48,162 nucleotides of DNA, taken from assembly GCA_001887945.1 (NCBI GenBank), contig LDOQ01000263.1:1-48162 (forward strand), written 5' to 3'. Every line of letters starts with the position of its first letter. Within the stretch, counting starts at the first letter, position 1. Under the pieces are notes generated by a model that was not told where the DNA came from, did no database searches, and saw nothing but the letters and a program-made list of their open reading frames with translations. Shown one piece after another: positions 128-47,548 of this stretch. The DNA comes from Spraguea lophii (lineage: Eukaryota > Microsporidia > Spragueidae). Made by a program: the position numbers and the translations under genes.

Positions 128-1040
128 ATAATAATGGGCAAGTCTTTATTTTATTTCGAGAAAAAGCAATAACGTTTATTACACACAAACTCAATTACTC
201 TAAAACATATGTTAAAATAAAATTAATGCGTTTATTGTGACACGCGGTACATACAAGCAAAGAACTTCAAGAACAAAAAATCATAGGCTACAGTGTATCT
301 TAAATACTGGATCATTCTTATTATTTTAAATGTTCAAATTAAAAAATGTAAATCAATTCTTTTTACAATTAAATTATAAAAATAAAAATTTAAATAAAAC
401 ATATACGTCAAAAATGAAATTTATTTAAGTTTCCTTTCGTAGATATTAAACTCTTTAAGTAAATTAAAACCAAGGTATGATTTACATCTTTATATATTTA
501 CATTATTGAACATGATTATTCTTATATGAATTTATTATAAAAAATAATTGTTATTCGTTGTTACAATACGAAATCTTTTTATTGAATATAAATGTTTAAA
601 AAAAATCTAAAGAATTTTGGTTATTAACATGAAAAAGGAGAAATGTATTTAATTGAAGTTCTTAAAAGTAAAGCATAATTTTGACATTAAAATATATAAT
701 TAAAGTTGATTTCATAAGACAATGATAATTTTATTTTATAATGATTTTTATTTATTTTTGTCTGTGGATTATAGGAAATTCACAGTTTATAAATTGGTTT
801 GATTGATTAATGTTTTTAATCGAACGGATATTATAATTTCTGGCCATCCAAGTGATTACATATTATGATATTAAAATCGATCTTCTTATTAACCAGGTTT
901 AAAACAATAAACATTCAATATATTACAATTAATAAATATAAATACCAATGTATAAAGGGAAATGGCAATAATTTTTTTCAAGTATAATTCTTCCTTAGCT
1001 TGCATCGAATATATAATAAAATTTTAAAGATTTTTTTTAT
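128..1040. other. A+T-rich intergenic region, no gene seen
   Basis: Very A+T-rich DNA with stops in all frames. I see no convincing ORF, RNA gene or recognisable repeat copy, although a very decayed element could be hidden here. Confidence 0.6.
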
Positions 1041-1202
1041 AATGAGACTGTTATTTATAGAAGTTTCCCATCTGTTGTGACCTATTGTGGCCTATTTCCT
1101 TTGGTTCTTAAAGTAAATCTAAGCTTGTACTAACTGGTTTTGATACATATATGCATTAATCTCGTCTTATCTTTGCTACAAAGTGTTAGAATTTTGCGTA
1201 AT
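1041..1202 (-). mobile_element. 5'-truncated tRNA-derived SINE (3' portion)
   Basis: On the minus strand this matches the last third of the full element at 18522-19013. It includes the diagnostic blocks aagcttgtactaactggttt and tatgcattaatctc (plus-strand reading), and the tail beginning ttatttatagaagttt. The tRNA-like head is missing. It lies directly beyond the 3' end of the tRNA-Ile gene. I could not identify a target-site duplication. Confidence 0.75.
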
Positions 1203-1213: not shown

Positions 1214-1287
1214 TGCTTCCACTGGGATTCGAACCTAGGACCCCGGCGTTATTAGCACTGTGCTCTAACCGACTGAGCTATGGAAGC
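1214..1287 (-). tRNA. tRNA-Ile (anticodon AAT)
   Basis: The minus strand folds as a 74-nt tRNA. The acceptor stem GCTTCCA pairs perfectly with TGGAAGC, followed by discriminator A. The D arm is TAGCTCAGTCGGTTAGAGC, the anticodon loop CTAATAA gives anticodon AAT, and the T arm carries GGTTCGAATCC. The anticodon stem has one A-C mismatch and one T-G pair. No intron is present and CCA is not encoded. Internal A and B boxes are intact, so pol III transcription is expected. Confidence 0.93.
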
Positions 1288-10740: not shown

Positions 10741-10917
10741 CCACCTAAAAAAATATTCATAATTAAAAGTTTCAAAGCATAAGGCAAGATGGGATTAATG
10801 CATATACCTGTAGCGAAACTGGTTAGTACAGGTTTAGATGTGTTTCAAGAATCAAACGTCATAGACCACGATAAGTCAAGAAACTTATATAAATAAAAGT
10901 TTTATTAATAAAAAAAA
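10741..10917 (+). mobile_element. 5'-truncated SINE (3' third)
   Basis: It aligns with the 3' third of the full element at 18522-19013: agcataag, gattaatgcatat, gttagtacaggttta and the tail ataaataaaagttttatt, then an A-rich run. The left boundary is approximate. No tRNA-like head is present. Confidence 0.75.
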
Positions 10918-11705: not shown

Positions 11706-12184
11706 TTTCTACTTAACTAAATGGTCGTGAGGTGGTAACCAAATCTCAAGTCTAATGGGTTCGAATCCTTCAACTAGAAGAATTTTCCAAAAAAATAGAA
11801 AGTAGAAAAGAAGAAAGAGGTTGGTGAGTGGGTAAAGGTTTGATAGCATAACACTAATCATGACTTGCCTATACAACGTCCTTACTACAGATTAAAATAG
11901 TGTTTAGCTGGTGTAATTGCAATCTCTGTATTGATTTATGATTTGGGCCAATACTATGCTAAGAAAAAGATTGGAAATCTTTAAAAATTTAGGTGATGCA
12001 GTGACATGCACCATACGCAAATTTCTAATGTTCTAGCGCATAAGATAAGATGGGATTAATGCATATCTGTAGCAAATCAGTTAATACAAGTTTAAATGTG
12101 CTTTAGCAACCAAAGGTTATAAACCATAACATACTGCATTGAGTTAGGAAACTTCTATAAATAAAAGTGTCATTTAAAAAAACT
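11706..12184 (+). mobile_element. Full-length SINE with 11-bp target-site duplication
   Basis: It aligns over its whole length with the copy at 18522-19013, from the first base of the tRNA-like head to the tail ataaataaaagtgtcatt and poly-A. The flanking direct repeat taattttagta occurs at 11695-11705 and 12185-12195. The B box is nearly intact (gggttcgaatcct), but the A box is decayed (taactaaatgg), so pol III activity is doubtful. Most differences from the best copy are C-to-T or G-to-A changes, showing age in an A+T-biased genome. Confidence 0.9.
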
Positions 12185-18271: not shown

Positions 18272-18521
18272 CACAAATGATATATTTTTTTATTAAACAT
18301 AATTAATATGCATATGTCAATCCTATTAAACAAATATAAAATTAAATTAATCTTAAAAAAATATTAATATTAATTTTTATATTAAATTTACAATTTATTT
18401 TACAAAATAAGAATATGTCAATAAATACAAAAATTAATATTAATATAAAACAGAGATGTTTTTATTGTTTTTACAAGAATTTATAATACCAATGTTTTTG
18501 CAAGAGATTCCGCCTTAATAA

Positions 18522-19013
18522 GTCCCGCCTGGCCCAGTGGTCGTGGGGTGGTAACCAAACCCCAAGCCTGGCGGGTTCGAATCCCTCATCCAGAAAAAAT
18601 TTTCAAAACAAAAAAAGAATAATAATAAACGGAGAAGAGAGAAAAAGGTTGTTGAGTGGGTGAGGTTTCGATAGCGCAGCATGGCTGTGCCTTGTATGAC
18701 GGCCCCGCTACTAGATTAAAGTAGTGTTTAGCTGATGTAGTTGCAATCCCTGTATTGATTCGTGACTCGGCCAATACTATGCAACGAAAGAGGCTGGGAA
18801 TTCCTTAAGAGCTGGAAGTGGGGGCGGCGACGCGCACCAGACGCAAAATCCTAACACTCTGGAGCATAAGGTAAGATGAGATTAATGCATATATGTAATG
18901 AAACCAGTTAGTACAAGCTTAATTTCGCTCGAGGAACCGAAGGTCACAGACCATGGTAGGCCGCAACCGGCCAGGAAGCTTTGATAAATAAAAGTTTCAT
19001 TCGTAAAAAAAAA
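18522..19013 (+). mobile_element. Full-length tRNA-derived SINE, best-preserved copy, 15-bp TSD
   Basis: About 492 bp. The tRNA-like head spans 18522 to about 18593, a body follows to about 18975, then the constant tail gataaataaaagtttcatt and a poly-A run. A perfect 15-bp direct repeat (attccgccttaataa) flanks it at 18507-18521 and 19014-19028. Head plus poly-A plus variable-length duplication is the hallmark of LINE-driven retroposition of a pol III transcript. It has no coding capacity; a 62-codon minus frame inside it is chance. It is clearly richer in G+C than flanking DNA and than its sister copies, so it is probably the youngest. The head cannot form a normal acceptor stem, so it is not a functional tRNA gene. 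Confidence 0.92.
18530..18584 (+). promoter_or_regulatory. Internal pol III promoter of the SINE (A and B boxes)
   Basis: A box TGGCCCAGTGG is at 18530-18540 and B box GGTTCGAATCC at 18574-18584, both matching eukaryotic tRNA consensus with 33 nt between them. Both are intact only in this copy; others have one or both boxes mutated. Confidence 0.85.
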
Positions 19014-19425
19014 ATTCCGCCTTAATAATGGATAATAATCAATTTTATTTAGTTAATAATTTTATGAAAAGTTTTTTGATAGAAAAAAACATCGAATTTT
19101 TATTTTTACCATAACAAATTCGGAATTAACCATATTGGGAATGTTTTCGGCGTATTAAAAAATAAGATAGTAAGTAAGGGACTAAAAAAAAATACAGACA
19201 GACTTACCCTGGAAATATATATTAAACCTGTTATTGAAGAGTTTGTTCCCAATACAAATGATTTTTGAAAAGCTTTTATAACAACATGTGAAGAAAAACC
19301 AACAATATTTCCAATAGAATAATTAATTCGAAAATTAACATTGTTTTATTCGTTTTTTAAATATAATTGTTTTTTATTTTATTTTTGAAAAAACCTTATA
19401 AATAATAATTTTATTAAAATATTTT

Positions 19426-22955: not shown

Positions 22956-23033
22956 ATTTTTTATACATTAAATTATCATTTAAAATAAATGAAATATTTT
23001 GGTTTCTATTTTTTTATTTTACTATTTTTTCCC

Positions 23034-23490
23034 AAATAAACTTTGATTATTATCAAAGTGTTTAGGTCTATCAAAATCTATGATTTGGGGTTTTGAAGTA
23101 TATTTAAATTTGCATTAACTGGTTTTACTACAGATATACATTATTTTCATCTGATCTTATATTTTGTGGTGTTAAAATTTCGTTTATGACGTATGTCTCT
23201 ACTATCCTTCCAGTTATAATGGGTTTTAACCTTCTTCCTGGAATGATTTTGACATAGTTACTAATCAATACAGATATCATAACTATCCGAGTAAATACCA
23301 TTTTAATATAATAATGGGCCGTCGTCCAAAATATAGTCAATCAACATTATTGAATCATCTCACATTCAATTATTTTGTCCTTCTCTTTTATTTCAATTTT
23401 TTTTATTTTTATCTATAAAAATTTTTCTAGATGAGTAATTAGAACTTGTTGGCTATGAGATACCTATACTATACCCCTTGAAAGAAATTA
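23034..23490 (-). mobile_element. Strongly decayed near-full-length SINE
   Basis: Read on the minus strand it follows the whole element order. Recognisable plus-strand blocks are gcattaactggttttactac, gtgttaaaatttcg, ctaatcaatacagatat, and ctagatgagtaattagaac at the head. Most changes are transitions toward A+T and the B box is destroyed. Boundaries are approximate and no target-site duplication is visible. A 70-codon minus frame inside is chance. Confidence 0.7.
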
Positions 23491-24304: not shown

Positions 24305-24378
24305 AGATATCTGAGCTCCGAACTCGTTAAATTTGAGATTCGATTATCATTTCACGACCATTCTCACAGATGAACTCA
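24305..24378 (-). repeat. Decayed SINE tRNA-like head fragment
   Basis: On the plus strand, ctccgaactcg and attcgattatcatttcacga align without gaps to the reverse complement of the SINE head (B-box to A-box interval) of the copy at 18522, differing mostly by transitions. The body beyond it is not clearly recognisable. Confidence 0.5.
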
Positions 24379-27674: not shown

Positions 27675-27945
27675 TATAACAAATGTCTGGATAGTTCTGC
27701 AAAGACTATGTATTCACTATTAATTTGAATAATATTATGTCGTGAAGGAAATCTGGAATCTCATAAAAGTAATGAAAAACAGTTACGTGCATTATAAGAA
27801 AAAATCCTAATGTTATGGAATATAAAGTATGATAAATCAAACATATTTACGTTAACACCCAGTAAATACATATAAACGGTTTCAAGAACTAAATTGCATA
27901 ACATACTCAGATAAACTCATAAATAAAATTTTATTTTCAAAATAA
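27675..27945 (+). mobile_element. Decayed 5'-truncated SINE
   Basis: It keeps the order of the element body: tgtattcac, aataatattatg, ggaaatctggaatc, aaaatcctaatgttatgg, gtttcaagaac and the tail ataaataaaattttatttt. The head is missing and decay toward A+T is strong. Edges are approximate. Confidence 0.55.
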
Positions 27946-39370: not shown

Positions 39371-40282
39371 AAAAAGGGTATGGAAATATTATAACAAAAA
39401 AATAAAAATTCATGCAAAATTAAAAAATATTTAGATTATGAGTTAGAGTTTATATAAAAATAGATTATGTAAATAACAATTATAGAATGTATGTATTATG
39501 ATAGAATAAAATATTGATCAACTAAATTATACTATATCACATGGTTTAAAATAATAGTTATAAGATAAGAACCATATTCAATTCTATATTTTAAAGATTT
39601 ATTTATTATTTATTGAGTAACCATTGTTCTATGAGAAATATTGCGTATCTGAAATAATATTTACAAAAATAATAGAATAGACACTAAATGCTAAATGTTA
39701 AAGTTCGTATTAATATATCCATTATAATATCATTAAATATAAATGTAATATATAAAAGATATAAATTTTAATCAAATTATTAAAAGAAAGTTAATCAGAA
39801 GAAAAACTATTAATAGTTTTATGAAATTATTAATCTCTTGTTTTCTGTTTTGTTCTATAGTTGGTTATGAAATAAAAATTAAGTTTATTAAAAAATTATG
39901 ATTATAAAAAATAAAGGAGATGTATTTTTTTGAGATTTAGTTTTAAGATAATTAATAGTCATTAAGAAATATATCATATGTATTATAATATCTATGAATA
40001 ACAAAATATTAAAATATAAAATGAAATGGTAATAATATTTATTATAATATCTATAAATAATATTTTAAATTAAAATCATATGCTACAGTAGGTGCTTATT
40101 ATGTGAATGCTATAAATAAAAATTTTATTAAAAAAATAAAATATTAATAAAGATTAATTAGTTCAGGTTATATTTAAATATGTAGAATATTTTTATATTT
40201 GATTTTTAAGGTTTATTTGAATTTTCTTGTAAAATTTTATATTTAAACTTTTTTAAAAAGAAATAATTCTTACTCCCTAACA
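39371..40282. other. Intergenic region, possible SINE tail remnant
   Basis: A+T-rich. Around 40080-40135, catatgctacagtaggtgc and ctataaataaaaattttatt resemble the last 60 bp of the SINE. This is too short to be sure. Nothing else seen. Confidence 0.4.
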
Positions 40283-44861: not shown

Positions 44862-45027
44862 TGTTCATAACAATTATTAAGATATAACAATATCTTTGTA
44901 TTTTGTATAACGATTATTAAGATATAATAATGTATTAAATTATTAATAAAATATTTCTATTACTATGGTAAAATATTTATTATATTCTTAAAAATATAAT
45001 TATTCAATCTTTTTATATTTTTTCTTA

Positions 45028-45265
45028 TGAAACTTTTATTTATAGAAGTTTTCTGGGTTACAATGGTCTACACGCTTTGGTCCCCTAAGTCCCATTTAAA
45101 CTTGTACTAATTATTTTCATTACAAATATACATTAATCCTATTTTATTTTATATTCCAAAATATTGAGATTTTGTGTATGATGTAATTATCATTCCATCC
45201 TCATTATAAGATTCATATCCCCTTCTTTAACATATTATTATCAGGCTCACAAATCAATATAAATC
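45028..45265 (-). mobile_element. 5'-truncated SINE
   Basis: Reverse-oriented. The plus strand reads atgaaacttttatttatagaa (as two overlapping blocks), then aatggtctacacgctttggt, aacttgtactaattat and aaatcaatataaatcttc, following the order of the element 3' half up to the middle of its body. The head is absent. It sits between the convergent SulP and CDC25 genes. Confidence 0.75.
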
Positions 45266-47095: not shown

Positions 47096-47548
47096 TAAGC
47101 CTATTTAGTCCGGTGGTCGTGGATGGTAACAAAATTTTATATCTAGTCAGTTCGAATCCCTCACCTAGAAGAATTTTCAAAAAAATATAATAAAAAAGTT
47201 GTTGTATGAGTAAAGATTTGATAGTGTAACATTAGCTGTGTTTTATATAACGTTCCATCGCTAAATTAAAGTAATGTTTGGCTGGTATAATTGCAATTCC
47301 CGTATTGATTTGTGATTCGGTCAATACTATGCCAAGAAAAAGGTTATGAATCTCATTAATGAGGATAGAATGATAATTACATCATACAAAAAGCCCTAAC
47401 ACCCTAGTGCATAAGGTAACGTGAGATTAATACATATCTGTCGCGAAACCAATTAATATAAGTTTAAATATGCTTTAGAAACCAAAAGTTGTAAACCGCG
47501 GTAGGCTAGGAAACTTTGATAAATAAAAGTTTCATAAAAAAAATAAAA
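47096..47548 (+). mobile_element. Full-length SINE with 11-bp target-site duplication
   Basis: It aligns along its whole length with the copy at 18522. The tRNA-like head starts at about 47098, the A box is nearly kept (ttagtccggtgg), the B box has one change at its first G (agttcgaatccc), the body follows, then gataaataaaagtttcat and an A-rich tail. Direct repeats gaattataaga lie at 47085-47095 and 47549-47559. It is moderately decayed. Confidence 0.88.

Follow-up and report, generated by a model that had tools for sequence, protein, structure and literature searches.

A young SINE family with a probable partner LINE in the microsporidian Spraguea lophii and its possible part in the duplication of tRNA genes

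Microsporidia are a model of eukaryotic genome reduction. Among SINE/LINE pairs, those of the stringent type end in short repeats, whereas the SINE described here ends in poly-A; UnaL2 and UnaSINE1 are an example of a SINE/LINE pair with a common 3' stem-loop. The fungal tRNA-derived SINEs of Aspergillus fumigatus typified by AfuSINE2 resemble the present element, in the part of that study consulted, in their tRNA-type pol III promoter, their length of 140-493 bp, and target-site duplications (TSDs) of 4-14 bp (PMC5063351). With regard to chimeric inserts, the available portion of a mammalian catalogue describes tRNA/L1 chimeras as typically half-length and antisense (PMC13174262). A survey of microsporidian transposable elements tabulates LINEs, LTR elements, and DNA transposons, and the word SINE is absent from the excerpts of that survey consulted (PMC4202319); a repeat table for Nosema bombycis lists a SINE class of 28,669 bp (0.18%), which is microsporidian too but is given, in the excerpt consulted, without subtype or structure (PMC3614468). 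An initial sequence-only reading of the DNA analysed here took no SINE family of this form to be known from Microsporidia; this stands to the extent that the literature searched, as partial texts including PMC4202319, PMC3749934, PMC3614468, PMC6416283, and PMC4948709, contains no characterised microsporidian SINE, and it is qualified by the Nosema bombycis table, PMC3614468 being the only one of these five papers whose consulted text mentions a SINE class in Microsporidia.

The window referred to below is the whole stretch of DNA that was analysed, 48,162 nt of Spraguea lophii contig LDOQ01000263.1, designated C33 in a 5.27-Mb assembly of 73 contigs. For the one protein of the window that was searched, a glycerol-3-phosphate dehydrogenase, the best named relatives are microsporidian (45-47%; Pseudoloma, Conglomerata, Gurleya, Edhazardia, and Hamiltosporidium). 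The window contains a full-length young SINE copy (Table 1) with an A box and a B box, called against the pol III consensus and showing tRNA-type spacing as read from the sequence, followed by a fixed tail and a terminal poly-A run; these elements and the perfect 15-bp TSD around the copy, all first reported from the letters alone, were confirmed in the sequence. The frame listing of the window has no ATG frame of at least 120 aa over this copy. By eye, a second tRNA-like unit was spotted in the body of the SINE.

Table 1. Coordinates of the SINE copies in the window, of the parts of the young copy, and of the adjoining tRNA gene
Feature	Position	Strand	Basis
Full-length young SINE copy	18522-19013	+	Sequence, genome search, profile
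Young SINE copy, profile extent	18524-19009	+	Profile
Upstream copy of 15-bp TSD ATTCCGCCTTAATAA	18507-18521	+	Flank comparison
Downstream copy of 15-bp TSD ATTCCGCCTTAATAA	19014-19028	+	Flank comparison
Pol III A box TGGCCCAGTGG	18530-18540	+	Sequence
Pol III B box GGTTCGAATCC	18574-18584	+	Sequence
Two-hairpin block common to SINE and LINE 3' UTR	18928-18978	+	Sequence match, folding
Terminal tail, similar to LINE terminus	18983-19001	+	Genome pattern search, alignment
Older full-length SINE copy	11706-12184	+	11-bp TSD 11695-11705/12185-12195 (read by eye); profile 11717-12181
Older full-length SINE copy	47096-47548	+	11-bp TSD 47085-47095/47549-47559; profile 47105-47537
Decayed SINE copy	23027-23460	-	Profile
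Decayed SINE copy, match from profile position 228	45020-45261	-	Profile
SINE copy, match from profile position 334	10771-10913	+	Profile
Decayed SINE fragment	27706-27833	+	Profile
5'-truncated SINE, just past T-run of tRNA-Ile(AAT)	1035-1200	-	Profile, junction scan
tRNA-Ile(AAT) gene, proposed 5' half of tRNA-SINE chimera	1214-1287	-	tRNA scan, junction scan

A SINE profile built from 71 copies was used to search the window and the reversed window; eight SINE copies were found in the window at E<1e-6, and the reversed window gave no SINE profile match at E<=10. The two older full-length copies proved collinear, each with its 11-bp TSD, as had been proposed. Among the decayed or truncated copies that had also been listed, those at 1041, 10741, 23034, 27675, and 45028 are supported because the profile matches there, while the listed copy at 24305 and a possible tail at 40080 are not; the copy at 1041 is real, but its position directly behind a tRNA-Ile gene had been overlooked. 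Elsewhere in the window, an array of 45-bp units (2027-2836) overlaps a 396-aa open frame (1612-2802) for which no Pfam match was found, and a perfect 127-bp inverted repeat at the contig ends (1-127 and 48036-48162) is probably an assembly k-mer artefact.

The host genome carries a SINE family with dispersed copies that have TSDs of their own and an A-rich tail. A genome search with the window copy, in which 40 of 442 first-look candidates were scored, identified at least 40 near-complete copies at 97-100% identity, window copy included, as well as four older partial matches. The genome has 146 exact occurrences of the 19-nt tail and none of the same pattern read backwards. Among 71 aligned copies, 51 (again with the window copy) are no more than 6% distant from the window copy, with an average difference of 2.0% from one another, which argues for a recent burst; older copies are up to 36% distant. 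SINE coverage of 91 kb around 30 tRNA genes, a sample somewhat enriched in SINEs owing to tRNA-SINE junctions, is 4.9%, the same as in the window, and extrapolation would put the family at roughly 700-900 copies, or about 5% of the genome.

Usable, non-repeated flanks were available for 66 of 70 near-full matches; in these 66 copies the median exact TSD was 13 bp, as compared to 6 bp for mismatched flanks, and an exact TSD of at least 10 bp was present in 45, as compared to 2.3% of mismatched flank pairs. By age, TSDs were found for 47 of 59 young copies and for 4 of 10 old stand-alone copies. Flanks shared between copies, which would speak against a SINE family, were looked for; the flanks differ and TSDs are general, so that the family was not refuted, and spread by segmental duplication was rejected on the private TSDs of the copies. 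Among 82 distinct copies with a 3' end, 67 start at or near position 1 and 15 later, 12 of the latter being 5'-truncated (with TSDs visible by eye around several) and three being cut by a contig or stretch end; five copies have a 5' end and lack the 3' end, two further rows without a 3' end representing one full copy cut by a stretch end. Since this sample was picked partly by full-length score and tail, these counts are not genome-wide rates. The whole-genome search thus bore out the dispersed, pol III-boxed, TSD-flanked, poly-A family with 5'-truncated members that had been proposed from the window, whereas the proposal that truncation affects the 5' side exclusively agrees with the 12 copies and is contradicted by the five. 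One SINE copy is nested within an older SINE (locus L051).

A reverse transcriptase (RT) survey of the genome yielded nine matches, including LTR-type elements, a telomerase, and LINE pieces. No intact LINE ORF2 was found in this survey; in the best copy, on contig C72, a 479-aa open frame is cut by the contig end and matches LINE-1 ORF2 at E about 1e-9, RT start included, with weak RT and endonuclease matches (PF00078 and PF14529, each 18.5 bits, below Pfam cut-offs), and the proteins nearest to this frame carry PF03372/PF14529. Because a decayed copy (L113) carries a C72-type RT, the LINE C-terminus, and then the UTR shared with the SINE, in that order, the LINE pieces belong to one family. 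With regard to the other RT matches, the telomerase RT on C2 (C2:65028-68771; L045, L048), with Telomerase_RBD and TERT matches, has long Asn-rich insertions within its RT domain, and LTR-retrotransposon coding pieces were observed on C73 (L041), C48 (L042), and C44 (L043), which are presumably Ty3-like; Pfam places protease, RT, and RNase H domains of the C73 element within one frame.

The sequence-only reading had recommended a search for a LINE whose 3' end matches the SINE, and such a LINE is present in the same genome. A block of ~50 nt of the SINE 3' end also occurs in ten LINE 3' ends (C21, two on C63, two on C11, C8, C6, C67, C61, and, in part, C27), and in 8 of these 10 the last ~20 nt before the poly-A are similar to the SINE as well. 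In a 19-kb set, SINE q368-462 matched the LINE 3' UTR at E 3e-12; genome-wide, with 40 of 106 candidates scored, the block was matched in at least 25 places at 84% over 55 bp and in two more at 86%, with 11 of the 25 falling inside full SINE copies. For the terminal similarity to the SINE, seven LINE ends scored 9-13, and 655 control stretches before A-runs had a 99th percentile of 10 and reached 14 at most; this similarity is counted as modest because control stretches with AATAAAA or a late TTTC had been filtered out, which favours the LINE match. Two hairpins are predicted alike in the SINE and the LINE block (z -1.3 and -2.3, respectively); three differences fall in the hairpin parts, two unpaired and one pair-keeping (A-U vs G-U), and an outer helix in the SINE folding model is absent from the LINE model. 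Between the two shared parts, the LINE UTR has ~110 bp that the SINE is without. This match between the 3' ends makes the LINE the probable partner of the SINE. LTR elements and LINE coding parts were also tried as relatives of the SINE, and gave weak A/T-rich matches and nothing more.

As side observations on the LINE, the copies on C6 (L127) and C8 (L126), which appear by eye to be flanked by TSDs, start within a base of one another at the start of the hairpin block, a common start that may mark a site where the RT tends to stop or, alternatively, a very short mobile unit. On C21, L120 1-3500 is a GC-richer region of nested LINE 3' ends; after them comes what may be an ORF1-like frame, its start preceded by a 68-bp piece with 99% identity to the C72 LINE RT.

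Most of the tRNA genes (57 loci) have an upstream TATA, with TATAW starts most frequent around -30 to -24, which suggests that the pol III promoters of this microsporidian are of an upstream-TATA type. A junction scan of these genes found a same-strand SINE just past the T-run in seven (Lys, Asn, Ala, Leu, Ile-TAT, Ile-GAT, and, in the window, Ile-AAT), with the SINE profile match beginning 9-21 nt after the tRNA; by chance, a SINE within 25 nt would be expected for 0.10 of the 57. No SINE was found equally close upstream or on the opposite strand among the 57 genes, for 26 of which the sequence covered extended about 150 nt before and 350 nt past the gene. A search for LINE 3' ends next to the same 57 genes gave five matches, all within SINE copies. 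One of nine 5S genes (locus L184) has the same arrangement, and locus L013 has a SINE behind a tRNA-Lys pseudogene (81% over 67 nt). Of these nine junctions, six, among them L013, have a SINE match that begins within q1-10 and three have one that begins at q265, q267, or q316; the junction adjoins the T-run whatever the SINE start. The nine SINEs are all older (72-91% identity to the window copy), those attached to tRNA copies having drifted 9-28% from that young copy. By comparison, the mature tRNA part is identical to a paralogue in 6 of 8 units, the tRNA-Arg of L013 counted, and this identity includes the predicted intron of Ile-TAT; Ile-GAT (80/83) and Ile-AAT (72/74) show differences. Selection or gene conversion probably keeps the tRNA parts intact, and intact tRNA parts beside drifted SINEs would fit template switching and targeted insertion alike.

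We consider it likely that the SINE family has been moved by an APE-type LINE and that tRNA genes have been duplicated via a template switch onto pol III transcripts. The SINE would be transcribed by pol III from its internal boxes, and the LINE RT would, as the shared sequence suggests, recognise its two-hairpin block and tail; target-primed reverse transcription would then give the products that are seen, i.e., TSDs mostly of 10-17 bp, poly-A ends, and a share of 5'-truncated copies. On reaching the SINE RNA 5' end, or on stalling, the enzyme would sometimes jump to an oligo-U-tailed pol III transcript, either a pre-tRNA or 5S rRNA, and would leave a bipartite insert of tRNA, T-run, and SINE that may represent an extra tRNA gene, as the tRNA part can survive as a gene because its promoter is internal. 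In the junctions observed, the second RNA is joined 5' of the SINE in sense, and its 3' end is deduced from the T-run.

Targeting of the SINE/LINE machinery to sites just 3' of pol III genes, as for TRE3 and Skipper-2 of Dictyostelium, would be a serious alternative to template switching, and in our assessment an unlikely one. The strong enrichment at one position and in one orientation beside tRNA genes is what targeting would give, the seven adjacent genes keep their tRNA part intact or nearly so, and insertion 3' of tRNA genes, in the same orientation for TRE3, is known in dictyostelids from the part of the study consulted (PMC5911963). Against targeting, however, none of the nine junctions has a young copy, and targeting does not predict the results of two comparisons, both framed after the junctions had come to light: a TATA at -42 to -18 precedes 1 of 7 SINE-adjacent tRNA genes as compared to 43 of 50 others (P 3e-4; with L013 added, 1/8 vs 43/49, P 5e-5), a difference that loses significance with stricter TATA patterns (P from 0.23 to 0.67; 1/7 vs 21/50, for example, gives P 0.23), and the seven SINE-adjacent tRNAs are confined to multi-copy anticodon groups, no two in the same group and all with a paralogue left that is free of a SINE (P 0.0025 and, by simulation, 0.0007, the Met pair being left out of the multi-copy groups as initiator and elongator). 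TSDs also bear on the choice: they enclose tRNA plus SINE in 2 of 7 units (Ile-TAT, 12/13; Leu, 13/14, the latter A/T-only except for one C and 23 nt beyond the tail match), whereas the TRE3-like pattern of a TSD on the SINE alone beside the tRNA was seen in 0 of 7, with power limited to the extent that old stand-alone copies show TSDs in 4 of 10. Subject to the same limited power, no significant outer TSD was found in 5 of the 7 tRNA-SINE units, and that of the 5S-SINE unit L184 was not significant (P 0.21).

Targeting also leaves unexplained the boundaries of the L013 unit, where a tRNA-Arg unit comes first, then the tRNA-Lys pseudogene, whose trailer is of the parental type, and last the SINE. 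Homology of the L013 tRNA-Arg to locus L012 begins at tRNA +1 and stops at a T-run 75-101 nt downstream; upstream of the tRNA-Arg and beyond the SINE, the comparison of the two loci found similarity no better than background or shuffled sequence. We propose that a double template jump would produce this arrangement. Trailers match those of a paralogue exactly up to the T-run in Leu (10 nt), Ala (7), and Ile-AAT (6), an agreement that does not discriminate because native tRNA pairs show it too. Of 16 pairs tested upstream, one, that of the Leu unit and its paralogue, is weakly similar (P 0.02). An empty-site proof tried at L180/L026 fails, the 5' side being homologous (score 65.5) and the 3' side not significant (P 0.22). 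Taking template switching further, we lean towards the view that in 8 of the 12 duplicated tRNA groups one copy arose by a jump from SINE RNA to pre-tRNA, mostly as intact genes, which would make the SINE/LINE system a main source of tRNA redundancy in this genome.

Derivation of the SINE from a tRNA, as first claimed, is consistent with the tRNA-like boxes and their spacing; outside the boxes, the best match is tRNA-Arg(TCG) (score 21 vs a shuffled maximum of 12), which points weakly to tRNA parentage there, and an Rfam search of the window copy returned no family at E<=5. A reading of the 492-bp element as a LINE-moved pseudogene family of a pol III structural RNA, with no tRNA ancestry, would accord with this weak similarity, but we regard it as improbable given the tRNA-like box type and spacing, the LINE-type 3' end that marks a mobile SINE, and the same Rfam search, which provided no matching family. 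A TTTT at q79 of the SINE could end pol III transcription early; 3 of 30 tRNA terminators in this genome start with only T4.

Finally, segmental or tandem duplication that carries the SINE with its surroundings is scarcely credible, as the common flanks of L180 and L026 and of the 5S loci L187 and L189 stand against flanks that differ between copies, an own TSD in most of the 66 copies tested, and upstream similarity no better than background in 15 of 16 tRNA paralogue pairs.

A young and abundant SINE with an identifiable partner LINE offers a small-genome system for SINE biology and, if the chimera reading is true, a concrete RNA-mediated route that duplicates tRNA genes in working order, as well as a plausible route for new SINEs to gain tRNA heads. 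Compared to AfuSINE2, described from a distant fungal lineage and, in the excerpt consulted, at low copy number, the present family has hundreds of copies by extrapolation and is set apart by the hairpin block in common with a LINE (PMC5063351). The match of the SINE 3' end to the 3' UTR of a partner LINE, with stem-loops, is shared with stringent-type pairs as presented in the portion consulted (PMC5135761), but the present SINE keeps only two segments of the LINE UTR. TRE3 and Skipper-2 resemble the junctions in lying 3' of tRNA genes (at 40-150 bp and 8-23 bp, respectively), but these are, according to the sections available, targeted autonomous elements, whereas the present evidence favours co-insertion of tRNA and SINE (PMC5911963). 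Closer likenesses are found, within the excerpts consulted, in U6/LINE-1 chimeras, in which a small RNA, sense-oriented in the case of U6, is fused to the 5' side of a retroelement that is either full or truncated (PMC13174262), and in the WEIRD/Mg-SINE/MGL chimeric retrogenes of Magnaporthe, with TSDs around the whole tripartite insert (PMC2104539); the proposed double jumps would resemble both. Unlike in the mammalian and Magnaporthe chimeras, the partner here is mainly a tRNA, full-length, in sense, and with its T-run, an intron is present in two tRNA cases (ARAGORN), and most copies remain intact tRNA genes; in our reading, full-length, sense, T-run-ending tRNA-SINE chimeras that persist as intact genes would be a new variant among chimeric retrogenes.
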